Assembly (NCBI RefSeq): GCF_014224355.1
Contig: NZ_VNWP01000001.1
Span: forward strand, 62,001 to 126,000
Source: Synechococcus sp. BSA11S
GTDB taxonomy: Bacteria > Cyanobacteriota > Cyanobacteriia > PCC-6307 > Cyanobiaceae
Direction: 5' to 3'
Length of the DNA stretch: 64,000 nucleotides
Part shown: piece by piece, positions 3,406-44,810 of the stretch
Layout of the letters: each line of letters opens with the position of its first letter
How positions within the stretch are numbered: the stretch's first letter is position 1
The notes under the pieces: model-generated
What the model was told of the DNA's origin: nothing
The model's database searches: none
What the model saw: only the letters and a program-made list of their open reading frames with translations
Made by a program: the position numbers and the translations under genes

Positions 3406-3865
3406 GCCCACCAGCCAGGCCAGTCGCTGCTTCGCGTTTGAGCGTGACCTGATCGGGAACTGGCGCTGCATCCCCCTCTGCCTGCGGCGGAAGCTCGACC
3501 TGGCCGGCATCAAACTGCGCCTCACCCACTGGCTCACCCTTGATCAGGCCCAGCGTCAGGAGCTGGTGCTCTGGCCCGACGGGCCCGACGATCTGCGTGC
3601 CATGGCCGACCACATCCGTGCGCTCACCCGCCCGATGGCAGAGGGAGAGGCCAGGGATCTGCCGCCGGTGTTCGCCGAGCCCTGGCAGGGGGCAGCCGCC
3701 CCTCCAGAGCCCGTGCTGCAGGCGGCCGCCGCCCTGGGGAAGCCTCTCAGCCTGGCTGAATGGCATGGCCTGGGCGAGTTGGAGCGGTTTGCGCTCTGCA
3801 AGCTGGCCCGCCCGGGCCACGACCATCACAACCTGCCGGCGGCCTTGCTGGAAGTGCTCGACTGA
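3395..3865 (+). CDS. narM: Nitrate reductase-associated protein NarM
   Basis: This 156-residue soluble protein matches the cyanobacterial NarM family, which is required for active NarB in Synechococcus-type organisms, probably by helping its maturation. Recognisable features are the FAFERDLIGNWRCIPLCLRRKLD segment in parts (FAFE, CIPL, RRKLD) near the N-terminus and a Pro-rich middle. It starts inside the TrpD2-like gene (11-base overlap), suggesting coupled translation, and its 3' end overlaps the convergent narB 3' end by 40 bases. Confidence 0.85.
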   Translation: MPPEPTSQASRCFAFERDLIGNWRCIPLCLRRKLDLAGIKLRLTHWLTLDQAQRQELVLWPDGPDDLRAMADHIRALTRPMAEGEARDLPPVFAEPWQGAAAPPEPVLQAAAALGKPLSLAEWHGLGELERFALCKLARPGHDHHNLPAALLEVLD

Positions 3866-7630: not shown

Positions 7631-7941
7631 GAATCAATGCGTATCGAGTCCTGGCCTCAGGAAAAAGCGCTCAGGGGTTATTTCCGGCGCCGAATGCTAA
7701 CCGTTTGGGTATTTAAGGTTGTGTCGGCGATTCTTCCATGTGTATCTGGCTACGGAATGACAACTTCGCTGGATCATCCGTTGGACGGTTGTGACCTGCT
7801 GGGCTCGGCCTGTCCTCCTCCGCCGGCCGGCCCTGTGCCCATGGCTTCCATCAGTGAGCCTCATCAAACGCGGATTGATGCATAAGAAAAAGCCGCGTAG
7901 GGTTCGCTCACTGACCTCTCCGGCCGACGAGCCTGATCCCC
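7631..7941. other. Divergent intergenic region nrtP / psiE-like gene
   Basis: This 311-base region has no convincing gene. Its left half holds the NtcA-type promoter for nrtP. The right half, up to the TTG start of the PsiE-like gene, has an A-rich patch (7879-7896) but no clear promoter elements. Confidence 0.5.
7711..7753 (-). promoter_or_regulatory. Candidate NtcA-activated promoter of nrtP-narB
   Basis: Read on the minus strand, GTA-GCCAGATA-CAC (7753-7740) fits the NtcA half-sites with one change (TAC to CAC). It is followed 23 bases later by TTAAAT (7716-7711), the expected spacing to a -10 box in a class II NtcA promoter. A start about 7704 would give a leader near 75 bases. Confidence 0.55.
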
Positions 7942-8517
7942 TTGACCACAGCCATTTCCGACGCCCTTCAGCCGAGCGCCGCTGACCGGCCGCTCGCTCC
8001 GCCCCCAGGCCGGGTTCGCTGGTATCAGCAGTTCCGCCGCGTTCAGATCGTGCAATCCCTCGAGGCGATTCAGGATCTGATTGCTGTCTCCCTCTGTGTG
8101 GGCCTGTTCTGCGTGATGGTGCTGCAGATGCGCATCCTGTTCTCCACGCTGCTCTCAGCGCCCCAGTTTCACGCGATCACAGCCGACATCCTCTTCATCC
8201 TGATTCTGGTGGAGCTGTTTCGCCTGCTGATCATCTATCTGCAGGAGCAGCGGGTCTCCATCGGTGTGTCGGTGGAGATTGCGATCGTTTCGGTGTTGCG
8301 GGAGGTGATCGTGAACGGGGTGCTGGAGACCGACTGGCATCAGATCCTCGCGGTCTGCCTGTTCCTGGCCACCATGGCCCTGCTGATGGTGGTGCGGGTC
8401 TGGCTGCCTCCCACGTTCTCCGGAGTCGATCCGGAGGCGAAGGTGTCGGCGCGGATGAAGGCTGGGCATCCCTCGCGATCAGGGGCGGATCGCCTGCTTG
8501 GCGCACCGTGCCCATGA
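7942..8517 (+). CDS. PsiE-family membrane protein
   Basis: A 191-residue protein with four hydrophobic segments (about residues 42-67, 80-100, 106-122 and 133-152), resembling the phosphate-starvation-inducible PsiE family of unknown biochemical role. The start is a TTG. The next in-frame codons upstream reach a stop (7912-7914) with no better start. Its stop overlaps the mobA start in ATGA, so it is translationally coupled with the Moco genes, which suggests a role in nitrate or molybdate supply rather than phosphate, though this is inference. Confidence 0.7.
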   Translation: MTTAISDALQPSAADRPLAPPPGRVRWYQQFRRVQIVQSLEAIQDLIAVSLCVGLFCVMVLQMRILFSTLLSAPQFHAITADILFILILVELFRLLIIYLQEQRVSIGVSVEIAIVSVLREVIVNGVLETDWHQILAVCLFLATMALLMVVRVWLPPTFSGVDPEAKVSARMKAGHPSRSGADRLLGAPCP

Positions 8518-28933: not shown

Positions 28934-31624
28934 ATGGCTGCCACCTCATCCGCCCGCTCCGAGCGGCACCCACGCCCCCGCAGCGGCGCCGAGATCCGCG
29001 AGGCCTTCCTGGCCTTCTACGAAGCCCGGGGGCACCGCCGCATGGCCAGCGCCTCGCTGGTGCCTGATGACCCCACGGTGCTGCTCACCATCGCCGGAAT
29101 GCTGCCTTTCAAGCCGGTGTTCCTGGGACAGGCGCCGAGGCCGGCCGCGCGGGCCACCACCAGCCAGAAGTGCATCCGCACCAACGACATCGAGAACGTG
29201 GGCCGCACGGCCCGGCATCACACGTTCTTCGAGATGCTCGGCAACTTCTCCTTCGGCGATTACTTCAAGGCCGAGGCGATGACCTGGGCCTGGGAGCTCT
29301 CCACAGGGGTGTTCGGCCTCGATCCGAAGCATCTGGTGGTCAGTGTCTTTCGCGACGACGACGAAGCGGCGGCGATCTGGCGCGACACGGTGGGGGTCGA
29401 CCCCCGGCGGATCGTGCGCCTGGGTGAGGCCGACAACTTCTGGGTGTCGGGTCCCACAGGACCCTGCGGTCCCTGCTCCGAGATCTATTACGACTTCCGA
29501 CCCGAGCTCGGTGACGACCACCTCGACCTGGAGGACGACAGCCGCTTCATCGAGTTCTACAACCTGGTGTTCATGCAGTTCAACCGCGACGCCGAGGGCA
29601 ACCTCACGCCGCTGGAGAATCGCAACATCGACACCGGCATGGGCCTGGAACGCATGGCCCAGATCCTGCAGGGGGTTTCGAACAACTACGAAACCGACCT
29701 GATCTATCCGCTGATCGAAACCGCTGCCACCCTGGCTGGGATCGACTACCGGCAGCTGGACCCCCGCGGCCAGACCTCCCTGAAGGTGATCGGCGACCAC
29801 AGCCGCGCCATCACCCAGCTGATCGCCGATGGGGTGACCGCCTCCAATCTGGGCCGTGGGTACATCCTGAGGCGGCTGCTTCGGCGGGTGGTGCGTCATG
29901 GCCGGTTGCTGGGCATCGACACTCCCTTCCTGCCGTCCATGGGGCAGGCGGCGATCGCCCTGATGGCGGAGGCCTATCCCCAGCTGGAGGAGCGGCGCGA
30001 GGCGATCATGGCTGAGCTGGCCCGGGAGGAGGCCCGTTTCCTGGAAACCCTCGAGCGTGGCGAGAAGCTTCTGGCGGAGGTGCTCTCGGCCCGGCCTGAT
30101 CAGATCAGCGGGGAGCAGGCCTTCGAGCTCTACGACACCTACGGCTTCCCCCTGGAGCTCACCGAGGAGATCGCCGAGGAGCATGGGCTGGCCGTCGACC
30201 TGGCCGGCTTCGAGGCGGCGATGGAGGCCCAGCGCCAGCGGGCCAAGGCCGCCTCGGTGCGGCTGGATCTCACCCTGCAGGGGGCGATCGAGGCGATGGC
30301 CGAGCACTTGTCCCCCACCGACTTTCGCGGCTACGAGGCCCTGGAGCACCCCAGCCAGGTGATGGCCCTGGTGGTGAATGGTGAGCAGGCCCAGGCTGCG
30401 GTGGCGGGCGATGCCGTCCAGATCGTGCTGGATTCCACCCCGTTCTACGGCGAATCCGGAGGGCAGATCGGTGATCGCGGCGTGCTGGCGGGCGGTGCTC
30501 CGGGCGCTGGGCCCGAGGCCGGGGTGATCGTGCGGATCGAAGCGGTCAGCCACCAGCGCAAGCTGATCGTCCACCACGGCCGGATCGAGCGGGGCGAGCT
30601 GACCCTGGGGGACACCCTGACCGCCCTGGTGGACCGTGCCTGTCGCCGGCGTGTCCAGGCCCATCACACCGCCACCCATCTGCTGCAGGCGGCTCTCAAG
30701 CAGCTGGTGGATGCCTCGATCTCCCAGGCCGGCTCCCTGGTGGATTTTGAGCGGCTGCGCTTCGATTTCCATTGTCCCCGTGCCCTGAGCGCCGAGGAAC
30801 TGGAGCGGATCGAGGAGCGGATCAACGGCTGGATCGCCGAGGCCCACGCCCTGGAGGTGCAAGAGATGGATCTGGAGCGGGCCCGTGCCGCCGGGGCCGT
30901 GGCCATGTTCGGGGAAAAGTATGGGGAGACGGTGCGGGTGGTGGATGTCCCGGGGGTCTCGATGGAGCTCTGCGGCGGCACCCATGTGGCCAACACCGCC
31001 GAGATCGGCCTGTTCCGGATCGTGAGCGAGACCGGCGTGGCGGCCGGCATCCGACGCATCGAAGCGGTGGCCGGCCCGGCGGTGCTCGATTACCTCAGGG
31101 AACGCGACAGCGTGGTGCGGGCCCTTACGGAACGCTTCAAGGTGCAGCCCGTCGAGATCCTGGCGCGGGTGAGCGGTCTTCAGGACGACCTCAAGGCCAC
31201 GGCCAGGGCCCTGGAGGCCGCTCGCTCGGAGCTGGCCAGGGCCAGGGTCGCGGCACTGGCGGCCCAGACGCAGGAGGCGGGAGCGTTCCGGGTGCTGGTA
31301 GCGCGCCTCGATGGGGTGGAGGGTGCCGCCCTTCAGCCGGCCGCCCAGCAGCTCCAGGAGACGCTTGGCCCGGCCGGCGCCGTCGTCCTCGGTGGCCTGC
31401 CTGACACCGCCGAGTCCAGCAAGCTGATCCTGGTGGCAGCCTTCGGTGCTCAGGTGATCGACGCCGGGCCGAAAGCCGGGCCTTTCATCGCTGCGGTGGC
31501 CAAGCGCTGTGGAGGTGGTGGTGGCGGTCGTCCGCACCTGGCCCAGGCGGGAGGCCGTGATGCCGCCGCCCTTGACCCGGCCCTCGAGCAGGCCCGAGCC
31601 GACCTGATCGCTCGGCTCTCCTGA
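28934..31624 (+). CDS. alaS: Alanyl-tRNA synthetase
   Basis: This class II synthetase charges tRNA-Ala in the cytoplasm. The 896-residue protein has the catalytic core (motif 2 region [21 protein letters not shown], motif 3 GMGLERM), the tRNA-recognition region, an editing domain with HHTATHLL and CGGTH zinc-binding residues, and a C-terminal oligomerisation domain. Length is a little above the usual 870-880 residues. Start ATG ([11 protein letters not shown]) is preceded by a short leader. The open frame continuing upstream is shadow of the membrane gene. Confidence 0.96.
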
Positions 31625-31635
31625 ATGGTTGCTAC

Positions 31636-31649
31636 GTATTGCCCGCTAC
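31636..31649. promoter_or_regulatory. Candidate NtcA-binding site before the glutaminase gene
   Basis: GTATTGCCCGCTAC is an exact GTA-N8-TAC match 70 bases before the glutaminase ATG and just behind the alaS stop. A weak -10-like TATCTG starts at 31676, 26 bases after the site (22-23 is usual). Exact matches are expected by chance several times in a window this size, but the position in front of a nitrogen gene raises its value. Confidence 0.45.
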
Positions 31650-31718
31650 AGACTGACCCGCCCGACACCGATTGGTATCTGTGCTCACCGGTATCCCACC
31701 CCGCTTGAGCCTGCTCGC

Positions 31719-33581
31719 ATGATCGATACCCCCAGCAGCACGGCCGATGTCATTCAAGGGCTGCTGGCGGATCTCCACCGTCGCTACTCCCTGCTTGAGG
31801 ACGGCGCTCCAGCCGACTACATCCCCGAGCTGGCCAAGGCGAATCCCTCTGATTTCGGCATCTCGATCGCCACAGTCGATGGCCGCCTCTACGAAGTGGG
31901 CGACACCCGCAAGCCGTTCACGATCCAGTCGATCTCCAAGCCGTTTGCCTATGGCCTGGCCCTGAAGTTGTTTTCAGGCCAGCACCTGGCCACGAAGGTG
32001 GGTGTGGAGCCCTCAGGGGATGCCTTCAACGCCATCAGCCTTGATCAGAAGACGGGTCGCCCCCGCAATCCGATGATCAACGCCGGAGCCATCGCCACCA
32101 CGGCGCAGATCTGGAACCACGATCCGCATCAGGCCGAAGCTCTGATGCTCGACTTCTTCAGCGAACTGGCCGGACGTCGTCTGAGCATCGACCGGGAGGT
32201 GTTCCAGTCGGAGCGCTCCACCGGCCATCGCAACCGGGCGATCGGACACCTGCTGCGCAATTTCGGAATCATTGAGGATGATCCGGAAGAGTCGCTCGAT
32301 CTCTACTTCAAGCAGTGTTCGATCACCGTCACCTGCCACGATCTGGCGGTGATGGCCGCCACCCTCGCCTGCCAGGGTCACAATCCCTTCACCGGCGCCA
32401 GGCCACTCACGCCGGAGATCACTGTGCGCATGCTGGCGTTGATGGCCACCTGCGGCACCTACGACTTCGCCGGTCAGTGGCTCTACGACGTGGGCATGCC
32501 CGCCAAGAGTGGCGTGGGCGGCGGGGTGCTGGCCGTGGTGCCCGGTCGGCTCGGCATCGCCACCTATTCGCCGCCTCTGGATGTGCTGGGCAACAGTGTG
32601 CGCGGCATTGCGGTCTGCAATGAGCTCTCCGACAGCCTCGGACTCAGTCTCTTCAACCAATACCCCCAGACCAGTTCCACGATCCGCCGTTCCTACAAGG
32701 GCACCCAGCGGCAGTCGCGGCGTTGGCGTGCAGTTGACCAGGCCAGGCTCCTGCAGGAGCGGCGGGATGCGATCCGAATCGTGCACGCCCAGGGAGTGCT
32801 TGATTTCGCCGCGATCGAGCGGCTGCTCTCCGAACTCAGCGAGATCATGGCCGACGCCTGGATCCTGGTGCTGGATGTGGCTCACGTCACCGAATTGCCG
32901 GAGGAATCCAGAGGGTTGTTCCTGAACGAGCTCACGTCCCTGCGGCGCAGTGGCGTGATCGTTCTGCTGGCCAGGGCCCAACATCTCGATCTTCCACGGA
33001 CCCTGAGCGTGGCCAGTGAAGAGGAGGAGATGCCGAAGTTCACTCAATTGGATCAGGCACTGGAGTGGGCCGAGGATTTACTCCTGAACTCAAGAGGTGA
33101 TGAGGACCGCACCCCTCCCTTCACCACGGAGATCGATCAGACGCTGGGCTTTCTGGGCATGCTGCAGCCCGGCCATCGCCAGACCCTGGCCGACCTGATG
33201 AAGTGCCGCACCTTTGCCAAGGATGACCTGGTGATCACCAAAGGTGATCCAGGCCATGAGCTCTTTCTGGTCAGGGAGGGACGCTTCACGATCACCGTTG
33301 AAATGCGGAGCAGCGATGGCCAGACCCATCAATCCCGCCTGGCCACCTTCGAGCCGGGGATGTGCTTCGGCGAGATTTCCTTTCTTTCCGGCGCGCCCCG
33401 CACCGCCAATGTCACTGCTGATCTCGACGGCAGCTGCTGGGTGCTGGAGCGCCATGATTTCGATACCCTGCGTCAGTGGGAGCCAGATGCCGTCACGGAA
33501 CTGTTGCTGGCCCTCACCCGCGATCTGGGCACCAAGCTTGCCCTCACCAGCTATCAGCTCACGTTGATGGAGCATCTTTGA
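31719..33581 (+). CDS. glsA: Glutaminase fused to STAS and cyclic-nucleotide-binding domains
   Basis: A 620-residue three-domain protein. Residues about 1-310 are a serine-dependent glutaminase (glutamine to glutamate and ammonium) with the SxxK catalytic pair SISK at 71-74, NPMINAGAIA and KSGVGGGVLAVVPGRLGIA. Residues about 350-455 are a STAS-like domain (LVLDVAHVTELPEES, GVIVLLAR). Residues about 490-610 are a CNB domain with phosphate-binding cassette FGEISFLSGAPRTANVTA, keeping both Glu and Arg needed to bind cAMP. Plain GlsA is about 310 residues, so the tail is probably regulatory. It is 13 bases in front of the first CHASE2 cyclase and probably cotranscribed with it. Confidence 0.9.
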   Translation: MIDTPSSTADVIQGLLADLHRRYSLLEDGAPADYIPELAKANPSDFGISIATVDGRLYEVGDTRKPFTIQSISKPFAYGLALKLFSGQHLATKVGVEPSGDAFNAISLDQKTGRPRNPMINAGAIATTAQIWNHDPHQAEALMLDFFSELAGRRLSIDREVFQSERSTGHRNRAIGHLLRNFGIIEDDPEESLDLYFKQCSITVTCHDLAVMAATLACQGHNPFTGARPLTPEITVRMLALMATCGTYDFAGQWLYDVGMPAKSGVGGGVLAVVPGRLGIATYSPPLDVLGNSVRGIAVCNELSDSLGLSLFNQYPQTSSTIRRSYKGTQRQSRRWRAVDQARLLQERRDAIRIVHAQGVLDFAAIERLLSELSEIMADAWILVLDVAHVTELPEESRGLFLNELTSLRRSGVIVLLARAQHLDLPRTLSVASEEEEMPKFTQLDQALEWAEDLLLNSRGDEDRTPPFTTEIDQTLGFLGMLQPGHRQTLADLMKCRTFAKDDLVITKGDPGHELFLVREGRFTITVEMRSSDGQTHQSRLATFEPGMCFGEISFLSGAPRTANVTADLDGSCWVLERHDFDTLRQWEPDAVTELLLALTRDLGTKLALTSYQLTLMEHL

Positions 33582-33594
33582 AGCCCCTGAGCCC

Positions 33595-35499
33595 ATGACC
33601 TCCCGAGCGATCACATGGCTGCGCCGCTACGGGGTGTTCGTGGGCTGGGCAGGAGCCTGCGCGCTCGGCTTCGGGTTGTTCCCCGACATCTACGAGCGCT
33701 GGCAGCTGAATCTGTCCTCCCGCACCCAGGAGCTGCGCGGTCCGCGCCAGCCTCCGGGCGGTGTGGTGATCGTCGGCATCGACGACTACAGCCTGGTTCA
33801 GGGGCAGAACGCCGACCTGAGCCAGGACAAGGAGCTGCGACGCCTGGCGGCCTGGCCATGGCCGCGGGCCATCTACGACCGTGTGCTGGATCGCCTGTTT
33901 TCCGCCGGTGCCCGGGTGGTGGGTTTCGACCTTCTCTTCGATGCCCCCAGCAGCCATGGCCCGGAGGATGATCAGGCTCTGACCGAGGCCCTGCAGCGCC
34001 ACAGCGGCAAGGTGGTGCTCGGTGCCCAGGTGTTTGAAAGCCGCGGCCGGGTGGGGGGGCTGACCCTCAGCGCTGCGATGCCCTTCCTTAGCGAGGCCGC
34101 AGGGGCCCGCAGCTCTGGACTTCTCAATGGCCTGCAGGATCCTGATGGCTACATCCGTCTGCGTCCCAGCACCTATGCCGAGCAGCTGCGTCAGTCCGGC
34201 ATGTTGGATGTGCCACCGGGGCTCTCCACCCAGCTGATCACCAAGGGCGGTCTGGAAGAAATTCAGCCGCCGCCGCTGCTGGCCAACTGGCGCCCCCTGG
34301 TGGACCCCTATGGCCCGCCGCGCACGATCCCCACGATTCCGATCTGGGAGGTGCTGGAGTCGGGCAGCTTCTCCCGGCTCGATCAGCAGGGTGTTTTCAG
34401 CGATCAGGTGGTGCTGATCGGCCCCACCGCCAGCGTGCTGCAGGACATTCACCGCACGGCGTTCGCGGGAGCCGAGGGCATGCCCGGCGTGGAGATTCAC
34501 GCCGCCGAGATCGCCAACCGACTGGAGGGCCGGGCTCTCTACATTCCCCCCACGGCCTGGTACGTGGCACCGTTGCTCGGGCTGGGGATGCTGGCCCTGG
34601 GCCTGGCCAGTGCCCGAGCTGAAAAACCCCTGGTTCGTCTCGGCGTCCTGGCGCTTCTCTCCGGCGGGATGGTGATCCTGGGCCTGATCCTGGTGAGCGC
34701 CTCCGGGACAGGGATCGGCATGGTGGGTCTCTCGGTCCTCACCCTCGCCACCGGTCTGGTCAGTGCCGGGGATGCCACGGTGCGCCTTCAATGGAATCGG
34801 CTGCGCCTGCGGCGGATGCTGGAGCGTTACCTCTCCCCTGCGGTGGCTGCTCAGATCGCCAGTCAGCCTGAGGAAGCTGATGAAATGCTGGGTGGCAAGG
34901 TCTCGGAGGTGGTGGTGTTCATCTGCGACGTGCGTGGCTTCACCCAGCGCACCACCCAGATGAGCAAGGAAGGCAAGGCCAGTGAATTGGTACAGCAATT
35001 GAATGAGTATTTCGCTGTCGTCGTTGATACGCTTCAGCGGAAAGGGGCGATCATCGACAAGTACATGGGCGACGCCGTCCTGGCTGTGTTCGGTGTCCCC
35101 CTGAACCGGGGAATCGCCGTCGAGGTCCAGTCGGCCCTGGAAGCGATTCTGGAGCTCCAGCACCAGATGGACTCCCTCAACGATCGCTGGGCCACCCAGG
35201 GGAAGGACCCCTGGGAGCAGGTGATGATTCTCAGTGGCGGGCCTGTGATCAGCGGCAACATCGGCTGCGCCTCACGGATGGATTACACGGTGATCGGCGA
35301 CACGGTGAACATGGCCAGTCGCCTGGAGGGCGTGGCCAAGCAGTCGGGACGCGACATCATCCTCAGCAGGGTGGTGGCGGCCAATGCCGACCCCGCATGG
35401 AATCTGGAGCGGGTGGGCGAGTATGAGATCAGGGGTCAGGGAGCCCAGGAGGTGTTCACCATGCAACCGAGTGAGTATTACGAGCAGAATCAGGGTTAG
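33595..35499 (+). CDS. CHASE2-domain adenylate cyclase (first copy)
   Basis: A 634-residue membrane sensor. A short N-terminal helix (about residues 13-28) leads to a CHASE2 sensory domain outside the membrane (about 40-315), then three hydrophobic helices (about 322-395). The class III cyclase domain (about 425-625) keeps both metal aspartates (FICDVRGFT and KYMGDAVLAVFG), the adenine-specifying Lys in DKYMGD with Thr in YTVIGD, and NMASR. The Lys/Thr pair is that of cyanobacterial adenylate cyclases, so cAMP is the likely product. It lies between glutaminase-CNB and a FecR-domain gene. Confidence 0.9.
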   Translation: MTSRAITWLRRYGVFVGWAGACALGFGLFPDIYERWQLNLSSRTQELRGPRQPPGGVVIVGIDDYSLVQGQNADLSQDKELRRLAAWPWPRAIYDRVLDRLFSAGARVVGFDLLFDAPSSHGPEDDQALTEALQRHSGKVVLGAQVFESRGRVGGLTLSAAMPFLSEAAGARSSGLLNGLQDPDGYIRLRPSTYAEQLRQSGMLDVPPGLSTQLITKGGLEEIQPPPLLANWRPLVDPYGPPRTIPTIPIWEVLESGSFSRLDQQGVFSDQVVLIGPTASVLQDIHRTAFAGAEGMPGVEIHAAEIANRLEGRALYIPPTAWYVAPLLGLGMLALGLASARAEKPLVRLGVLALLSGGMVILGLILVSASGTGIGMVGLSVLTLATGLVSAGDATVRLQWNRLRLRRMLERYLSPAVAAQIASQPEEADEMLGGKVSEVVVFICDVRGFTQRTTQMSKEGKASELVQQLNEYFAVVVDTLQRKGAIIDKYMGDAVLAVFGVPLNRGIAVEVQSALEAILELQHQMDSLNDRWATQGKDPWEQVMILSGGPVISGNIGCASRMDYTVIGDTVNMASRLEGVAKQSGRDIILSRVVAANADPAWNLERVGEYEIRGQGAQEVFTMQPSEYYEQNQG

Positions 35500-35529
35500 T
35501 CTTGATCAGATCGTTCAGTGACTGGCCTC

Positions 35530-36240
35530 ATGAACCGTCGCGTTGGTGCAACGTTTGCTGGACTCCTTCAGGTTGGCCTGCTGCAGGCCGTGCTGATGGC
35601 TCCCGCTTCTCCGCTTCATGCCGCAGCGTTTCAGCAGGCCACCATCAAGAGGTTGGTGGATGGTCGCGAGGTCTACATCAATGGAAAGGCCGCCCGGGTC
35701 AACCAGGTGGCCCGCTCCGGGCAGCAGGTGCGCACCGGCAAGAGCAGGGCCGAGCTCCTCTTCGATGGCCGCGCCACGGGCTTCATGGGCCGCTCCAGCG
35801 TGATCACTCTCGGCAACAGCTGCTTTCGCCTGAGCAAGGGTGCCGTGCTGGTGAGTGGTCCCCAGAAGGCCTGCCTCGGCTCCAAGGTACTGGGCGTGAA
35901 GGGCACCACCTACGTGCTCACCCGAGCTGACGACGGCCTGTACGACTTCGTGGTGCTGGAAGGTCAGGGCTATGTGGGCCCTGAAGACGGCTACGAGGAG
36001 AACCAGGACTCCACCTCCTCAGGCTCTGGAGCCGTGGCGGCGGGTGATCCATCCGGCAACACCACCTACGTCTGCAGCTGTGAAGTGGCCCGCTTCACAG
36101 CCGATGGTGAATTCGTCAGTCAGGGCAAGATGAGCAGCAGCCAATACCAGGCACTGCTGGGGCGGCATACTTCGGGTCAGTCCCAGTTGCCCAAAAGCTC
36201 AGCGATCCAGGAGGCCTTCTCCCGCTGCTACAGCGGCTGA
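35530..36240 (+). CDS. Secreted FecR-domain protein (first copy)
   Basis: A 236-residue protein with a signal peptide (hydrophobic stretch TFAGLLQVGLLQAVLM, cleavage near LHAAA). A FecR-like beta-rich domain follows, with SRAELLFDGRATGFMGRSSVITLG and VLGVKGTTYVLT near the middle and a Ser/Gly linker. The C-terminal part holds CSC and a final RCYSG, giving possible disulfides. FecR domains often act in periplasmic signalling. It follows the CHASE2 cyclase by 30 bases, so it may modulate the cyclase sensor. A GTG at 35518 is an alternative start. Confidence 0.8.
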   Translation: MNRRVGATFAGLLQVGLLQAVLMAPASPLHAAAFQQATIKRLVDGREVYINGKAARVNQVARSGQQVRTGKSRAELLFDGRATGFMGRSSVITLGNSCFRLSKGAVLVSGPQKACLGSKVLGVKGTTYVLTRADDGLYDFVVLEGQGYVGPEDGYEENQDSTSSGSGAVAAGDPSGNTTYVCSCEVARFTADGEFVSQGKMSSSQYQALLGRHTSGQSQLPKSSAIQEAFSRCYSG

Positions 36241-36248
36241 GGCCGGCA

Positions 36249-37727
36249 TCAGAGGGTGAGGTTCTCGAACAGTTGCTTCATGCGCCTGAGCAACTGATTC
36301 TCATGAGCCTTCACCTTCTCGCGCTCCATCCCCTCCAGTTCACCCCGGCGTTTGCTCACCAGGTGGGCCAGCCGGTCCATCAGGGGAGGGTTGTTCAGCA
36401 GAAGGGGTCCCAGGCTGGGCCGTGACACCTCCAGCAGCAGGCATTCCTCCAGGGCCCGCACGGTGGCGCTGCGTCGGCTGTCGGTGAGCATCGACATCTC
36501 GCCGAAGACATCCCCGTGCCTGAGGCAGGCCACCTGGAACGGCTCGGCCTCCTCCTGGTTCTTGAGCACCTCGACCACCCCCTGAACCACCTGGAAGAGA
36601 GAGTCGCCCGGGTTCCCTTCCCGCACCACCACCTCTCCAGGGGCGAAACGCAGGCAGCGGGTGGTCGTGGCCAGTTGGAACATCTCCTCTTCACTGAGGT
36701 CGCCGAACAGGGGGTTGCGGCTGAGCAGGCTGCGCCGATGCTCCATGCCGCGCTGCTCGGGATGTCCGGCATCGAGGATGCTGCGCTTCGGCCGCAGTTC
36801 ACGCACCGGATAGGGAACGCTCTGGCCGGCCCGCTCGAGGGTGAACCAGATCTGCTCGAGCAGTTCACTGCGCAGGTCGAGCAGATCGCTCTGGTTTCCT
36901 GGCCTCTGGAAGGCCAGGATGTCGTAGGTGATGGCGCTGTCGGCAAAGGCCTGCACCCTCACCGCCGGAGGGGGCTCATCGAGCACCCGGGGATGCTTGT
37001 CCAGCACATCCAGCAGGAACTGACGGGCCCTGGAGGGGGGGAGGCTGTAGTCGAGCCCGATGTCGAAACGGTTGCCCATCACGCCAAAGGCCACGTGGTT
37101 GCGCACCACCACCTCGGTGACCTGGGTGTTGGGAACAACCACCAGCGAGCCGGTGATGTCCTTCAGGCAGGTGTCGCGCCAGTTGATCGACACCACCACC
37201 CCCATGGTCCCGTCACCAAGGTCGAGGAAATCACCCACGGTGAAGACATCATCGAACTGGAGCTCCAGACCCGCGAAGAGATCCTTGAGAGGTTCCTGGG
37301 CCGCCAGGCCCACCATGGCGGTGAGCACGGCCGAGGTGGTGACCAGGCTGACCAGGTTGAAGCGGGCCTGCTCCTGCACGAGGATCACCGTGGCCACGGT
37401 GCCGCCTCCCAGCATCAACAACTGCAGCAGAATCTGCGCCGGTTCCTTTCTCAGGCCCAGGGCGGCGGGTAGCTCCAGGAATCCCCAGAGGGCCATGCGG
37501 ATGCCCAGATAGCTGAACATCAATTCGTCGATGGTGGAGATCCAGGTCCGGTAATGGAGGGGCAGGAGGATCAGCGGCAGGGTGCGCACCAGCGCCCAGC
37601 TCAGAATCGACAGGGTCGCCAGCTGGATGGGCAGCTTCGGCAGTCGAAGTCGCCGGACCAGGATCTGCAGCGGCAACAGCAGAACCATCACGACGATGGC
37701 TGAGACCCATACCTCCAGCAATGACAT
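36249..37727 (-). CDS. MscS-type mechanosensitive channel with cyclic-nucleotide-binding domain
   Basis: A 492-residue inner-membrane protein. N-terminal hydrophobic helices (to about residue 150) lead into the MscS pore helix (TTSAVLTAMVGLAAQEPLKDLFAGLEL) and the cytoplasmic beta domain (VGDFLDLGDGTMGVVVSINWR). Residues about 340-460 are a CNB domain with the cassette FGEMSMLTDSRRSATVRA, retaining Glu and Arg. This layout fits the bacterial cyclic-nucleotide-gated MscS-like (bCNG) group, in which the nucleotide can modulate the channel. It converges on the FecR gene with an 8-base gap, inside the cyclase cluster. Confidence 0.9.
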   Translation of the reverse strand: MSLLEVWVSAIVVMVLLLPLQILVRRLRLPKLPIQLATLSILSWALVRTLPLILLPLHYRTWISTIDELMFSYLGIRMALWGFLELPAALGLRKEPAQILLQLLMLGGGTVATVILVQEQARFNLVSLVTTSAVLTAMVGLAAQEPLKDLFAGLELQFDDVFTVGDFLDLGDGTMGVVVSINWRDTCLKDITGSLVVVPNTQVTEVVVRNHVAFGVMGNRFDIGLDYSLPPSRARQFLLDVLDKHPRVLDEPPPAVRVQAFADSAITYDILAFQRPGNQSDLLDLRSELLEQIWFTLERAGQSVPYPVRELRPKRSILDAGHPEQRGMEHRRSLLSRNPLFGDLSEEEMFQLATTTRCLRFAPGEVVVREGNPGDSLFQVVQGVVEVLKNQEEAEPFQVACLRHGDVFGEMSMLTDSRRSATVRALEECLLLEVSRPSLGPLLLNNPPLMDRLAHLVSKRRGELEGMEREKVKAHENQLLRRMKQLFENLTL

Positions 37728-38701: not shown

Positions 38702-39091
38702 ATGGCATTGGATGGTGCCCAGGCCATTGTCGGCCTAGGGCTTTTCACCCTGTTGGCCATGGGCCACTTCGTTGCTGACTTCGGCCTCCAGAGTGATCGG
38801 ATGGCGGTGGAGAAGTGTCCCGGCAAAGATCACACCCTCCCCTGGCCCTGGTGGTTGCTGGCCCATTCCGGGATTCACGCCTTCTTCGTGAGCGTGATCA
38901 CGGGCGTGATCTGGCTTGGTCTGGCCGAGTGGGGCCTCCATGCCCTGATCGATTACGGCAAGTGCCGCCACCGCTACGGGCTGGGGGTGGATCAATCCCT
39001 GCACATGGCCTGCAAGCTGATCTGGGTGCTGATCCTGCTGAGCTTCGGCCCCATTCCCACCGGAGCCCTGCTGCAGGCCTTCCCCCGCTAA
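38702..39091 (+). CDS. DUF3307 membrane protein
   Basis: A 129-residue protein with three to four hydrophobic segments, starting FTLLAMGHFVADFGLQSDRMA, which matches the DUF3307 family (short polytopic proteins of unknown function). Conserved His and Asp occur in HFVADF, AHSGIHAF and HALIDYGKC, suggesting a polar site within the membrane. Its TAA stop interlocks with the convergent CNB gene (the two stop codons share bases 39089-39090). Confidence 0.75.
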   Translation: MALDGAQAIVGLGLFTLLAMGHFVADFGLQSDRMAVEKCPGKDHTLPWPWWLLAHSGIHAFFVSVITGVIWLGLAEWGLHALIDYGKCRHRYGLGVDQSLHMACKLIWVLILLSFGPIPTGALLQAFPR

Positions 39092-39684
39092 GGCTTGATG
39101 GCCGGGGAGGAAGGATGGGGCGAGCGCGCTTTGCCGATCGTCACCAGCCGCTCCATCGCTGTGTTCAGGCAGTAATTCAGGGGTTGGATCGCCTTCTCCA
39201 GCTGGCTCAGCTGCGTCGTGTCGCCCCTCTCGCCGGCGGCAATGCCACTGAGCAGCAGGGCGATCACCTCATTGCTGCGCATGCAGCGCTGGCTCACCAG
39301 CGCCAGCATCTCCATGGCCAGGTCCACATCAAAGAGCAGGGTCTTGAGGAAGTTATCCACGCTCACCTCCACCAGCTCGGCGGGGCCCTCGACCACCCGC
39401 ACATCGGCGGAGTGCTGACCTGAGCCGAACAGTCCCATCTCCCCCAGCAGTTCCTCGGCCTCGATCACGGCCAGAGTGTGGGGCTCGGGTTCGATCAACC
39501 GTACCTGGATCGCCACCTTGCCGCTGGTGAGCAGCATCAGGCTTTCGGCAGGATCCCCCTGCCGCATGATCAGCTCCCCGATGGCAACGAGACGGCGCAC
39601 CGGTGCCAGCTCCTCATGGTGGATGTCCAGGAGCAGTTTCATGCGCTCCCGTACCACCTTCAGCTGCGGCTCATCTCCCCACAT
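39088..39684 (-). CDS. Stand-alone cyclic-nucleotide-binding-domain protein
   Basis: A 198-residue protein with a single CNB domain (about residues 25-125) and a helical C-terminal part (about 130-185) without a helix-turn-helix that I can see. The phosphate-binding cassette reads LGEMGLFGSGQHSADVRV: the Glu is kept, but the key Arg is replaced by His, so binding of cAMP may be weak or absent. It lies 12 bases downstream of speA and is probably cotranscribed with it. It may regulate by protein contact rather than DNA binding. Confidence 0.8.
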   Translation of the reverse strand: MWGDEPQLKVVRERMKLLLDIHHEELAPVRRLVAIGELIMRQGDPAESLMLLTSGKVAIQVRLIEPEPHTLAVIEAEELLGEMGLFGSGQHSADVRVVEGPAELVEVSVDNFLKTLLFDVDLAMEMLALVSQRCMRSNEVIALLLSGIAAGERGDTTQLSQLEKAIQPLNYCLNTAMERLVTIGKARSPHPSSPAIKP

Positions 39685-39696
39685 GGTTGGCTCCTC

Positions 39697-41694
39697 TCAG
39701 GTCTGCAGGTAGGTGCTCTGGCGCAGACTGCTCTCCAGATGGGCCATCAGCCGACCGGCATCGGGCAGCGGCAAGGTGCCGCGGTGAATGGCCGCTTCGC
39801 TGGCCACCCGCAGGCGCTCCAGCAGGGCATCGGGATCGTGTTCCATCGCTTCGAGCACCTGGGCGTTGCTGTTACCCCTCACCACATGGTCGACCCGGTA
39901 GCGCCCGTTGGCACCCAGACGGATATGGACCGCATTGGTGCTGCCGAACAGGTTGTGAAGGTTGCCCATCACTTCCTGGTAGGCGCCTCCCAGAAACAGG
40001 CCGATCCAGTAGGGCTCTCCGGCCCGCGGCTCATGCAGTTCCAGCAGCGGCTTGGCCTGGCCGGCGCCGATGAAGCGGGCCAGCTTGCCGTCGGAGTCGC
40101 AGGTGAGGTCAGCGAAGCTGCCCAGGCGGGTGGGTCGTTCCTCGAGCCGGTGGATGGGCATCACCGGAAAGAGCTGATCGATCGCCCAGGTGTCGGGAGC
40201 GGAGCGGAAGATCGAAAGGTTGGCGTAGTAGGTGCCCGCCAGGGTGGCCTGCAGGGTCCGAAGGTCGTCGGGAATGGGGGTGTCGGTGCTCCAGCGATCC
40301 AGCTGCTCCGCAATCGCCTGGCAGCAGGCCCAGTAGAGCTGCTCAGCCGCTCCCCGTTCGGTGAGGCTGAGGTAGCCCAGCCGGAAGGCGGAGAGGGCGT
40401 CCTGCTTGAACTTGATGGCGTCAGTCCAGCCTTCCTGCAGGTGGTCAACGTTGCCTGGCGTGTCCCGCACAGCGGCCCGGATCGAGGCCAGGGTGTCGCG
40501 CAGGTTGCGCACGATCAGCGGTTCCTCCGGCTGTCCCGCCGGCTCCTCCCCGGGCACCCCGGCGGTGCCGAGCACGTCGAAGACGAGCACACTGAAGTGG
40601 CTGACGATGGCGCGGCCGCTCTCGCTCACCAGGGTGGGCACCGGCACCCCGCGCGGCTCGCAGCATTCCCGCACCGTGGCCACCACGTCGTTGGCGTAGT
40701 TCTGCAGGGAATAGTTGGTGGAAGCGGCCGTGGCGGTGCGGCTGCCGTCGTAGTCGATGCCGAGGCCACCGCCCACATCCAGATAGCCCATCGGCGCCCC
40801 GAGCTCCGCCAGTTGCACATAGATCTGGCCCGCTTCCTGCAGGGCGTCCTTGAGCACGGCAATGTCGTTGATCTGGCTGCCCACGTGGAAATGGAGCAGG
40901 CGCAGCTCGCCGAGCAGATCGGCCCGACGCAGGGCCTCCACGGTGGCCAGCAGATCGGGCACCGAGAGGCCGAACTTGGCGCGCTCGCCCACTGAGCTTC
41001 CCCAGCGGCCGGTGCTGCGGCTGGCCAGCTTGGCGCGCACCCCGATCAGGGGGGCGGCCCCCAGCTCCCGACTGGCGGTGATGATCCGCTCCACCTCATC
41101 GGGTTGCTCGATCACCACCACCGGCTGGCGGCCGAGCCGACGGGCCAGGATCGCCGTCTCGATGTAGCGCTGGTCCTTGTAGCCGTTGCAGATCAGCAGG
41201 GCCTCGGGATCGTCCACCAGGGAGAGGGCGATCAGCAGTTCCGCCTTGCTGCCGGCCTCCAGGCCGAAATGCCACTGGCGGCCGCTCTCCACCAGCTGTT
41301 CCACCACGTGGCGTTGCTGGTTGCATTTCACCGGAAACACCCCCTGGTAGCGGCCGCCGTAGCCGTACTGGGCGATGGCCCGCTCAAAGGCGGCATGGAG
41401 CCTCTCCAGCCGGTCTTCGAGAATGTCGTCGAAGCGGATCAGCAGCGGCAGGGTGAGATCGCGCCCCTGAAGGCCCTGCACCAGCTCCACCAGATCCAGG
41501 CAGCCACCCCGCTCCCCCCGCGGCTGCACCATTACGTGCCCGCGGGCGCTCACGGAGAAATAGGGCTCACCCCAGCCGTCGAGGCCGTAGAGCCGGCTGC
41601 TGTCGGCCACGCTCCAGCCATCGCCGGCAGGAGCAGGGGGGGCGGAGCCGCGGGTCGGGTCGGCCCCCATGGCCGTGGGATCGGCGAGAACCAT
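39697..41694 (-). CDS. speA: Biosynthetic arginine decarboxylase
   Basis: SpeA removes CO2 from arginine to give agmatine, the first step to putrescine and a route of arginine nitrogen use. The 665-residue PLP enzyme has the cofactor lysine in FPVKCNQQRHVVEQL, the Gly-rich LDVGGGLGIDYDGSR phosphate-binding region, and C-terminal CDSDGKL and NLFGSTNAVH motifs. Its length is typical of the long biosynthetic type. The gene diverges from ndk. The start ATG (MVLADPTAMG) may be one Met too early. Confidence 0.94.
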   Translation of the reverse strand: MVLADPTAMGADPTRGSAPPAPAGDGWSVADSSRLYGLDGWGEPYFSVSARGHVMVQPRGERGGCLDLVELVQGLQGRDLTLPLLIRFDDILEDRLERLHAAFERAIAQYGYGGRYQGVFPVKCNQQRHVVEQLVESGRQWHFGLEAGSKAELLIALSLVDDPEALLICNGYKDQRYIETAILARRLGRQPVVVIEQPDEVERIITASRELGAAPLIGVRAKLASRSTGRWGSSVGERAKFGLSVPDLLATVEALRRADLLGELRLLHFHVGSQINDIAVLKDALQEAGQIYVQLAELGAPMGYLDVGGGLGIDYDGSRTATAASTNYSLQNYANDVVATVRECCEPRGVPVPTLVSESGRAIVSHFSVLVFDVLGTAGVPGEEPAGQPEEPLIVRNLRDTLASIRAAVRDTPGNVDHLQEGWTDAIKFKQDALSAFRLGYLSLTERGAAEQLYWACCQAIAEQLDRWSTDTPIPDDLRTLQATLAGTYYANLSIFRSAPDTWAIDQLFPVMPIHRLEERPTRLGSFADLTCDSDGKLARFIGAGQAKPLLELHEPRAGEPYWIGLFLGGAYQEVMGNLHNLFGSTNAVHIRLGANGRYRVDHVVRGNSNAQVLEAMEHDPDALLERLRVASEAAIHRGTLPLPDAGRLMAHLESSLRQSTYLQT

Positions 41695-42275: not shown

Positions 42276-42309
42276 GCGGCCACGATTGGGCGAGGTTCTC
42301 ATTGAGGCC

Positions 42310-42981
42310 ATGCCCCGTCTCAATCCTCTGATTCCATTCGCCCTCGGCGGCCTTGCAGCGGTCGCCGGGATCCTCCCGGTCGAGGCCCGTGGCGGCCTGC
42401 CTACCTTGCCGCAGGTGGTGGAGATCCCCTCCCGGCCGGCCTACGTCACCCCGCCCAAGGGTCAGGAATCAGATGCGCGCAGGGGCCAGCGGCTTGAGCC
42501 CTCCACCCTGCTGCGCACCCGCAAACCCGGCAGGCTGCAGGTCGCTTTCCCCGATGGACGCCGGTTCCGTCTGGGAGGCGATTCCCTCGCCCTGATCGGG
42601 AACCGCAGCGTGGAACTCAAGCGCGGTCAGATCATCGGCTGGTTGCTGCCCGGAAGACCTGACGGCGCCCCTCTGAGGATCAGAACCCGGGTCGGCACCG
42701 CTTCGATTTCGGGCACCACGGTGTTTCTCGAAGCCAGCTCCGAGCTCCTGAGGATTTTCAGCTGGGAAGGACCGGTGCAGGTGGAGGCCCGTGACGGCCA
42801 GCGCTTCAGCCTCAGCACAGGAGAAGAGGTGGTGTACAGCGATGGAGCCTGGAGTCCGCCGCGTCGACTGAGCCGCGCCGAGGCGGCGCGCCGCCGCCGT
42901 GCCAGTGCCTTGCTCAATGGCTTCTCCAGCCCGATGGAGACCCTGCCCGAACTGGAGCGTCAGCTCGACAATCTGCCGTGA
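42310..42981 (+). CDS. Secreted FecR-domain protein (second copy)
   Basis: A 223-residue protein with a signal peptide (PLIPFALGGLAAVAGILPVEA) and a FecR-like domain (LQVAFPDGRRFRLGGDSLALIG, then TRVGTASISGTTVFLE and FSLSTGEEVVYSDG). The basic C-terminus (RRLSRAEAARRRRASALL) is unlike the first copy. Its stop codon overlaps the start of the following cyclase (GTGA), a sign of coupled translation and probably of a working pair. Similarity with the first FecR gene is in layout rather than close sequence. Confidence 0.8.
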   Translation: MPRLNPLIPFALGGLAAVAGILPVEARGGLPTLPQVVEIPSRPAYVTPPKGQESDARRGQRLEPSTLLRTRKPGRLQVAFPDGRRFRLGGDSLALIGNRSVELKRGQIIGWLLPGRPDGAPLRIRTRVGTASISGTTVFLEASSELLRIFSWEGPVQVEARDGQRFSLSTGEEVVYSDGAWSPPRRLSRAEAARRRRASALLNGFSSPMETLPELERQLDNLP

Positions 42982-44810
42982 GGCGCTTCCGCGTCTGGTG
43001 GCTGGCGCTGGCCCTGCCCCTGGTCGTGGCGCTCCCCGTCTGGCGCGACTCCCCTCCTGGAAGAGCCCTCGCCCGTCTCGACAGCCCGGCCCGCCGGGCT
43101 TTCTTTCGCTGGCGGGGGCCCAGGGAGGCGCCGGAGAATCCCCTGCTCCTGGCGATCGACTCCGAGTCCCTGGGGCTGGCTGATCTGCTCACGGCTGAGG
43201 AACGTCGGGCCTCGCCGCTCTGGCGGCGGATGGGGCCGTGGCCCTGGCCCCGCGCCCTGCAGGCGGAGCTCGCCGCCATCACCCTGCGTGGAGGTGCCAC
43301 GCGGGTGCTGGTGAACATCGAATTCAGCCAGCCCAGTCGCTACGGGCCCGCCGATGACGCGGCCGCCCAGGCCGTGCTGGCTCCCTGGCGGGAGCGGGTG
43401 CATCTGGTCAGCGGGTATCAGCTCGAGCGGCGACAGGGGATGGATCAGATCAAGCTGAGCCGCCCTGTGCTGGATCTGGGCCCGGCGGGTCTTGCCGTCC
43501 TGCTGCAGAGCGATGACGGGCTGGCGGAGGCGGTGCCCGGACGGCGCTGGTGGCGCGAGCAGCTGGTGGGATTCGCTCCTCCCCATCCACTGCCGATGGC
43601 CTTCCTGGTCCGGCCGGAAGCTCTGACGGAGGAGCCGCTTGGCCTCAACTTCCGCGGCCCGGCGGGAACGCTGCCATCCCTGCCGGCCTGGCGCATCCAG
43701 CAGGTTCCCCCGGAAACCTGGAACGACCGCACGGTGGTGATCGGGGCGACGACGCCAGAGCTGGGGGATCAGCAGGAAACGCCCTACGGCGCCATGAGCG
43801 GCAGCGAGGTGCTGGCCACGGCCGTCGGAAACGTGCTCGTCGGTGATGGGCTGCGGCCACTTCCGGCGCTGGGTTCGGGGCTGCTGCTGCTGCTCTGGGG
43901 CGTTACCGCTCTGGCGGTGCTCACGCGCCCGATCACCGCCCTGGGCACGGCCACCGCGGCCATCGCGCTGATGGCCAGCGGTCTGGGTGTGGCCTACGGA
44001 TTCTGGCTCTGGGCCCAGCTCAGCCTGCCCCTGGCGGCCCTGCTGCTGAGCCCCCTGCTCGGGGGCGGCCTGCGCGTGGCCGCCCAGGCCCGGGAGGAAC
44101 TGCGCGAGCGGGCCTACCTGCACCAGGTGCTGGCCCACCGGATCTCCCCGACTCTGCTCAACGACATTTTGCGCAACCCCGGGCCCCTCTGGAACCGGGC
44201 CGGCGGCCAGCGCTGCCGCTGCGTGCTGCTGTTCAGCGATCTGGTCGCGTTCACCCCCCTGAGCGCGGTTCTGGATCCCGGGGAGCTGTTCGCGCTGCTC
44301 AACCGCTACTTCGAGGTCATGGCTGAGGCGGTGCTGGCGGAGCAGGGCCTGCTTGACAAGTTCATCGGCGATTCGGTGATGGCGGAGTTCGGCGTGCCCC
44401 GCAGTCGCGGCGACCGGCTCGAGGCCAGGGCGGCGGTGCGCGCTGCCCTGGCGATGCAGCGTGGCCTGGAGGGCATCAATCGCGAGCTGGCCGCCAGGAA
44501 TCGACCCCCCCTGCGCCATGGCATCGGCCTGCATGTGGGTGAGGTGATCGCCGGCAACCTCGGCTCCAGCCAGCGGCTCGAGTTCACGGTGGTGGGGGCC
44601 AGTGTGAATGTGGCCAGCCGCCTGGAGGGCCTTACCCGCCGTTATCCCCAGCACCCGATTCTGATCAGTGCCGCCCTGCAGGCGCTGCTGCCGGGGGAGC
44701 TGGAGGTGGAACCGCTGGGGGCCCACTTCCTCAAGGGCTGGCCCGAGCCCCTGGAGGTGCTGGCTCTGCAGGGGCTGCGTGGCCCGGAGTCCAACGTGCA
44801 GCCTGGATGA
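42978..44810 (+). CDS. CHASE2-domain adenylate cyclase (second copy)
   Basis: A 610-residue membrane sensor of the same plan as the first: N-terminal helix, CHASE2 domain (about residues 40-285), three hydrophobic helices (about 295-365), and a class III cyclase domain (about 400-600). Both metal aspartates (LLFSDLVAFT, KFIGDSVMAEFG), the Lys in DKFIGD, Thr in FTVVGA and NVASR are present, predicting adenylate cyclase. It starts with GTG inside the stop of the FecR-domain gene. The 3' end lies 20 bases from the convergent thiO end. Confidence 0.9.
   Translation: MRRFRVWWLALALPLVVALPVWRDSPPGRALARLDSPARRAFFRWRGPREAPENPLLLAIDSESLGLADLLTAEERRASPLWRRMGPWPWPRALQAELAAITLRGGATRVLVNIEFSQPSRYGPADDAAAQAVLAPWRERVHLVSGYQLERRQGMDQIKLSRPVLDLGPAGLAVLLQSDDGLAEAVPGRRWWREQLVGFAPPHPLPMAFLVRPEALTEEPLGLNFRGPAGTLPSLPAWRIQQVPPETWNDRTVVIGATTPELGDQQETPYGAMSGSEVLATAVGNVLVGDGLRPLPALGSGLLLLLWGVTALAVLTRPITALGTATAAIALMASGLGVAYGFWLWAQLSLPLAALLLSPLLGGGLRVAAQAREELRERAYLHQVLAHRISPTLLNDILRNPGPLWNRAGGQRCRCVLLFSDLVAFTPLSAVLDPGELFALLNRYFEVMAEAVLAEQGLLDKFIGDSVMAEFGVPRSRGDRLEARAAVRAALAMQRGLEGINRELAARNRPPLRHGIGLHVGEVIAGNLGSSQRLEFTVVGASVNVASRLEGLTRRYPQHPILISAALQALLPGELEVEPLGAHFLKGWPEPLEVLALQGLRGPESNVQPG

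Follow-up and report, generated by a model that had tools for sequence, protein, structure and literature searches.

The glutaminase gene and its protein product

We analyzed a 64,000-nucleotide stretch of the Synechococcus sp. BSA11S genome, hereafter the window, in which a gene encoding a three-domain glutaminase follows alaS and is itself followed by genes related to cyclic nucleotide signaling. The features of this locus are as follows.

31636-31649, plus strand: NtcA-type box GTATTGCCCGCTAC (GTA-N8-TAC), an exact match conserved before orthologs
31673-31678, plus strand: putative -10 element TGGTAT, separated from the box by 23 bases, of the T-N3-[AT]T pattern found in the aligned promoters
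31719-33581, plus strand: glutaminase-STAS-CNB fusion (P0001), 620 amino acids, an open frame with an ATG start and Pfam domains
31803-32654, plus strand: glutaminase domain, residues 29-312, from Pfam, residue conservation and fold similarity to the human and Micrococcus enzymes
32757-32981, plus strand: STAS domain, residues 347-421, marginal in Pfam and seen in the Micrococcus luteus glutaminase alignment
33207-33470, plus strand: cyclic nucleotide-binding (CNB) domain, residues 497-584, from Pfam, a conserved cassette and PKG/PKA relatives
33595-35499, plus strand: CHASE2 class III nucleotidyl cyclase, from Pfam CHASE2 and Guanylate_cyc matches and catalytic motifs
35518-36240, plus strand: FecR-like protein, without a Pfam family and named by resemblance only
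36249-37727, minus strand: MscS-type channel with a C-terminal CNB domain (bCNG type), from Pfam, a convergent neighbor
42286-42981, plus strand: FecR protein before the second cyclase, forming a FecR and CHASE2-cyclase pair
42978-44810, plus strand: second CHASE2 class III cyclase, a PF00211 match

The initial annotation had described the product as a glutaminase with a STAS domain and a cAMP-binding tail, and Pfam searches returned all three domains. The Glutaminase model (PF04960) matches with 389.8 bits over profile positions 1-286 of 286, and in the 2.88-Mb genome it is matched once, by the fusion gene only. The cNMP_binding model scores 60.8 bits over residues 497-584. The window protein only just passes the STAS cut-off of 22.6 bits, with a marginal score of 22.9, and L049, a distant cyanobacterial relative with the full architecture, gives a clear match (31.9 bits). 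A catalytic pair, Ser71-x-x-Lys74, lies inside the glutaminase domain. By its full-length Pfam match and its catalytic and substrate residues the protein is a serine-dependent glutaminase, with glutamine hydrolysis as its predicted activity.

The structure predicted for the fusion is moderately reliable (mean pLDDT 72.6, pTM 0.49), and its comparison with solved structures hardly probed the parts beyond residue 371. The salt-tolerant glutaminase of M. luteus (Mglu; 3if5 and 3agd, among other structures) likewise consists of a glutaminase followed by another domain, to which the STAS part of the fusion aligns. Mglu 3if5 aligned with model residues 6-425 (Z 33.8, 374 residues, rmsd 9.8), and 3iha_A showed 36% identity over the Foldseek alignment. 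The combination of a glutaminase with a STAS-like domain is therefore a known and structurally solved arrangement, since the M. luteus chains align past model residue 420. They align no further than approximately residue 426, and hence are without the CNB domain; no link of Mglu to cAMP or NtcA was seen. For residues 476-586 of the fusion, the best-scoring solved sequence relatives were PKG and PKA regulatory domains, together with one very large Toxoplasma chain. The CNB domains of the PKA/PKG type share the cassette FGE..PR.A with the fusion, but are attached to a kinase or a kinase inhibitor rather than to a glutaminase. Among bacterial enzymes controlled by a CNB domain is the mycobacterial acetyltransferase Pat. 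The match of the Pat model (NCBIfam NF058543) to the fusion is weak and confined to the CNB part (30.1 bits, with a cut-off of 460); the two proteins differ in their catalytic domain, and the CNB domain of the fusion is C-terminal, after STAS.

Conservation was assessed among 53 full-length loci encoding 38 distinct orthologous proteins, leaving out matches that spanned fewer than 560 residues; alignment A1 contains 16 of the 38 sequences. The ortholog from Synechococcus sp. RedBA-s (L007, 6001-7860) carries an in-frame stop at codon 256, which reflects either gene decay or a sequencing error; it was excluded from A1 and kept in the counts. The closest named relative found was Synechococcus sp. 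WH 5701 (L002), with a protein 92% identical. In the glutaminase domain, Ser71 is kept in 37 of the 38 orthologs and K74, N121, E165, N172, Y248 and V266 in every one; we take these seven positions to have catalytic or substrate-binding roles.

The phosphate-binding cassette of the CNB domain, FGEISFLSGAPRTA, occupies residues 550-563. Its G551, R561 and A563 are invariant in the 38 orthologs, and an acidic residue always occupies position 552 (Glu in 34, Asp in the other 4), in agreement with the intact cassette noted in the initial annotation. The residue after the cassette Arg varies (position 562: T in 24 orthologs, M in 6, S in 4, others in 4), so that the sequence does not tell cAMP from cGMP as the ligand. 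We consider it probable that the CNB domain binds a cyclic nucleotide, and control of the glutaminase activity by that nucleotide is predicted with somewhat less confidence. The domain could instead be a structural, ligand-independent module or bind some other ligand, leaving an ordinary glutaminase that is regulated only transcriptionally, by NtcA. CNB-less glutaminases with a STAS-like part do exist: those of Embleya (L155) and Luteimonas (L019) gave a Pfam glutaminase match, a STAS match below the cut-off and no CNB match. The CNB domain is also more variable than the catalytic domain (mean identity to the window protein of 0.61 and 0.79, respectively, over the 38 orthologs). However, the cassette Arg and Gly are invariant although neighboring positions vary, and a domain that had lost binding would be expected to show a degenerate cassette. 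We regard the structural alternative as unlikely, though it is the strongest of those considered here.

Full-length fusions are encoded in 44 of 300 genomes of the family; a further genome, G536, in which the match is split in two pieces, is not included in the 44. Across 386 genomes of the phylum, near-full-query matches were listed in nine, eight from the same family and one (G187) that holds L049. One scan of genome contigs yielded 19 loci, among them L015, which is labeled Planctomycetia. The L015 fusion and its upstream DNA are almost identical to those of Synechococcus sp. CS-1331 (L016), and the contig, filed under a Planctomycetia MAG, is probably a misbinned cyanobacterial one. L015 apart, the full glutaminase-STAS-CNB architecture was seen only in cyanobacteria, the relatives from elsewhere that were scanned for domains being L019 and L155. 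None of the 216 matching plasmid records covers 80% of the query, and our searches of open-licence PMC papers found no description of the combination. Two further observations were made during this survey. In genome G427, one contig of ~3 Mb carries the fusion twice, close to each of its ends and with the same score (G427:C1:13674-15509 and G427:C1:2978532-2980367), owing either to a duplication or to a circular overlap that the assembly did not resolve. The same family also contains a second kind of long glutaminase (~585 amino acids; L157, L158 and L159), whose glutaminase domain is preceded by an N-terminal extension and followed by a C-terminal part that, in our judgment, is reminiscent of TerB domains.

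The probable NtcA-type promoter and its conservation

The exact GTA-N8-TAC box, already noted in the initial annotation and verified here in the sequence, begins 11 bases past the end of alaS (31624) and 83 bases ahead of the glutaminase ATG. The putative -10 element TGGTAT follows at a spacing of N23 and has the form TGN3T, which differs from the strict TAN3T located ~22 bases after the palindrome; its position predicts a transcription start near 31685. The box, the N22/23 spacing and the putative TGN3T -10 element match the geometry published for NtcA promoters of marine Synechococcus, and TGN3T serves as -10 in the predicted NtcA promoters of strain WH7803, including the predicted nrtP promoter, GTAACAACGGCTAC-N22-TGTGAT (PMC9430850). 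The gene driven here is a glutaminase, a word absent from the main text of that paper. NtcA itself is encoded in the genome (374 bits against a cut-off of 244.95 in a profile search). A search for sigma-70 promoters in 31400-33700 found none where 0.2 were expected, and hence was uninformative; no Rfam element reached the gathering threshold in the 64-kb window.

The initial annotation had cautioned that chance matches to the motif are to be expected in 64 kb. Shuffled sequences contain 0.25 exact GTAN8TAC matches on average, as compared to two in the window (3 of 100 shuffles reach two). The second perfect box (2183-2196) lies between two genes of a nitrate-assimilation cluster, ~580 bases before the nirA start, and has no evident -10 element at N22 on the minus strand.

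23-1603, minus strand: nirA-type nitrite reductase gene, 641 bits against a cut-off of 594
3826-6030, minus strand: molybdopterin oxidoreductase gene, read as narB, for which no model reached its cut-off

The box taken alone would be weak evidence, and its conservation before orthologs is what makes it a credible element. An exact GTAN8TAC occurs within 100 bp upstream of 19 of the 38 orthologs, representing 5 of 13 clusters at 85% identity, and GTAN8GAC occurs in 6 further orthologs. From these 25 loci with GTAN8[TG]AC, we aligned 17 promoters, leaving out L093, which has an exact box without a -10 element, and seven loci with a box at the start codon. The pattern T-N3-[AT]T follows at N22 or N23 after the box in 16 of the 17. 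Within those 16 promoters, the box is variable at its four central bases but keeps the arms GTAGC/GC(T/G)AC, and its flanks drift as well, in contrast to the conserved box and -10 element. Both arms are changed in L009 (GTAAC...GTTAC).

The composite pattern GTAN8NAC-N22/23-TN3[AT]T was found in 18 of the 38 orthologs, which fall into 7 of the 13 clusters, as against none of 6154 background windows; it was not found in the other 20 orthologs. A looser GTN10AC composite was present in 19 of the 38 (8 of 13 clusters), compared to 8 of the 6154 background windows. The background consisted of half-overlapping windows of 130 bases, taken on both strands elsewhere in 15 long loci. Since the composite pattern was fixed after inspecting these promoters, it is the contrast with the background, rather than a p-value, that counts. 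In the window and the 15 long loci together (268 kb), eight of the nine exact boxes are at the glutaminase gene, the ninth being the window box at 2183-2196. The element is also present in L010, L011 and L013, with alaS at a distance of over 2 kb, and in L008 and L012, in whose flanks no alaS was found, which indicates that it travels with the glutaminase gene. The possibility that the box is a chance match or part of the alaS end, for which one could cite the 63 exact matches across the whole genome, is rejected as having practically no likelihood, given that the box and -10 element are conserved in 7 of 13 clusters and also away from alaS.

The quality of the box by itself fails to define the regulon in these organisms. 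Exact boxes were found before 3 of 22 glnA loci of relatives, with none within 500 bp in any of the 9 of these loci that belong to the same genus, and before 2 of 17 amt loci of relatives. GTTN8TAC lies upstream of glnA in the window genome, and GTGN8TAC precedes 9 of 17 ntcA loci of relatives. Since this calibration on glnA, amt and ntcA gave little, the argument is based on conservation at the glutaminase gene. On this basis, the NtcA-type promoter is very probably genuine, and NtcA is likely, with only slightly less assurance, to bind it. The nitrogen control predicted in the initial annotation is better supported than had been claimed there, because the box and a correctly spaced -10 element are conserved while their surroundings drift.

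The box could also be recognized by another protein of the CRP family, or NtcA could act there as a repressor. Besides NtcA itself, the NtcA model has four lower-scoring matches in the genome, including a 253-amino acid frame at 76 bits. In addition, in one clade (L042, L043, L087, L089, L090, L091 and L096), an exact box ends 3 bases before the likely ATG, a position that suits repression. These seven boxes seem to overlap the last codons of an upstream frame; they cannot work as class II activator sites, their geometry is not counted as support, and they may be repressor sites or a coincidence. The half-sites GTA(G/A)C and the -10 spacing agree with the activator sites predicted for NtcA in WH7803, for example at nrtP (PMC9430850), and we consider this alternative to be the least likely of those that accept the box as genuine, with activation by NtcA as the preferred reading.

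Cyclases and CNB proteins near the fusion

The first cyclase gene begins 13 bp after the glutaminase stop, in the same direction, and from this gene order the two are probably co-transcribed. The cyclase contains the motifs ICDVRGFT, DKYMGD and DYTVIGDTVNMASR, with two metal Asp, Lys, Thr, Asn and Arg in place. We take these residues to be the metal-binding Asp, the purine-recognizing Lys/Thr pair and the Asn/Arg of the catalytic center, and Lys together with Thr to be specific for adenylate cyclases of class IIIb. PF00211 has only two matches in the genome, both within the window (33595-35499 and 42978-44810). Of the ten PF00027 hits in the genome (nine over the cut-off), three are in the window; both class III cyclases and these three CNB hits fall within one 13-kb stretch. 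A small CNB protein (39088-39684, minus strand; 198 amino acids) adjoins speA (39697-41694) and contains little beyond its CNB domain. Its cassette Arg is replaced (LGEMGLFGSGQHSADV), and it may thus be without the usual cAMP binding. This protein illustrates the degenerate cassette that would be expected of the fusion if binding had been lost.

The order of glutaminase, cyclase, FecR-like and convergent MscS-CNB genes is common to L002, L003, L006, L007 and L017, and the FecR-like gene is conserved together with the cyclase in five loci. In L004, the cyclase and FecR-like genes are absent from their place (after 7860), and in L005 the cyclase is reduced to a remnant (7875-8137); the glutaminase and MscS-CNB genes remain in both, a pattern that looks like cyclase loss. 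A cyclase is not adjacent to the glutaminase in L008-L013, L016 and L018. The cyclase is therefore not an obligate partner of the fusion, being missing, a remnant or non-adjacent in those loci.

On a larger scale, a class III cyclase was located within 16 kb of the fusion in at least 24 of the 44 fusion genomes, a count that omits the adjacent cyclases of L002, L003 and L006 (genomes G521, G476 and G459, respectively), as compared to approximately 1.2 expected by random placement. The linkage arises by selection or by descent; since the genomes are related, shared synteny inflates the count. A cyclase anywhere in the genome was found in 43 of 44 genomes with the fusion and 31 of 36 without it, in a sample of 80 genomes chosen for size and completeness. 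This difference is too weak, and co-occurrence was dropped as evidence.

The clustering of cyclases at the glutaminase locus counts against the CNB domain as a structural module. Together with the conservation of the cassette, it supports an intact CNB pocket in the predicted protein; this linkage was not part of the finding in the initial annotation. A CHASE2 cyclase beside a FecR protein is also found in the cAMP module of Campylobacterota (PMC9239204). Unlike that module, as far as it is described there, the pair is here accompanied by CNB effectors, the glutaminase and the MscS channel.

In 11 loci, the MscS-CNB gene adjoins either the glutaminase gene or the cyclase and FecR-like genes that go with it, and in all 11 the channel has the cassette FGEMSM..RSA. 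This arrangement bears on a further alternative, in which the locus is an osmotic or salt device, with cAMP setting the glutamate pool via the glutaminase and the channel, and nitrogen control being secondary. The channel gene is retained near the glutaminase or its cyclase and FecR-like genes also in loci without a cyclase, which supports the osmotic alternative, as does the name salt-tolerant carried by the molecule from Micrococcus. The Synechocystis glutaminase is reportedly regulated by sodium, again in favor of an osmotic role. Support of the same kind comes from Synechococcus PCC 7942, in which glutamate release depends in part on a putative mechanosensitive channel (PMC13312541). However, the promoter that is conserved belongs to the nitrogen type rather than to a known osmotic one, and no complete MscS-CNB channel was found close to the fusion in L010, L012, L016 or L018. 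We consider the osmotic alternative improbable, more so than a structural CNB domain and slightly less so than a box bound by another regulator or repressed by NtcA, and retain nitrogen control as the primary reading.

Proposed control of glutamine hydrolysis

Each part of the system is of a known kind, from the NtcA promoter and the CHASE2-FecR module to enzymes controlled by a CNB domain and glutaminases carrying a STAS-like domain. At this locus, nitrogen state and cAMP signaling are probably brought together in a single enzyme. A possible physiological connection is provided by Anabaena, in which nitrogen starvation raises cAMP, as stated in a 2014 review.

In the best reading, to which we give an even chance, NtcA would set the amount of glutaminase and locally made cAMP would set the activity of glutamine hydrolysis. 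NtcA with 2-oxoglutarate would bind GTAN8TAC ~41 bases before the start point and activate the TGN3T -10 promoter under nitrogen limitation. In the window species and five close relatives, a single transcript would then continue to the CHASE2 adenylate cyclase and FecR-like genes. The cAMP produced by the clustered CHASE2 cyclases could bind the CNB tail of the fusion, and this binding would move the STAS-CNB tail and switch the glutaminase, most likely by releasing autoinhibition. Only with the two signals in agreement would glutamine be converted to glutamate and ammonium, which would limit futile cycling against glutamine synthetase. The neighboring MscS-CNB channel may draw on this cAMP pool as well and let out solutes, glutamate among them. 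The interpretation offered in the initial annotation is, as a whole, partly supported, with direct cAMP control and NtcA binding standing as predictions from sequence.

A more extended version is a two-key switch, in which the NtcA promoter drives a cAMP-gated glutaminase along with its cyclase, while cAMP also opens the MscS-CNB channel to release glutamate. We regard this extended version as speculative and unlikely in full. If true, nitrogen state would license, and cAMP would trigger, both the conversion of glutamine to glutamate and glutamate efflux in this picocyanobacterium and its close relatives.

To our knowledge, the cyanobacterial effectors of cAMP described so far are transcription factors. 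If the predicted control is true, the fusion of a receptor domain to the glutaminase would constitute a post-translational link from cAMP to nitrogen metabolism. The cAMP output at this locus is directly testable, with two cyclases and few candidate effectors in one 13-kb stretch. The proposed mechanism also makes a concrete prediction as to how NtcA-bearing cells could avoid running glutaminase against glutamine synthetase.
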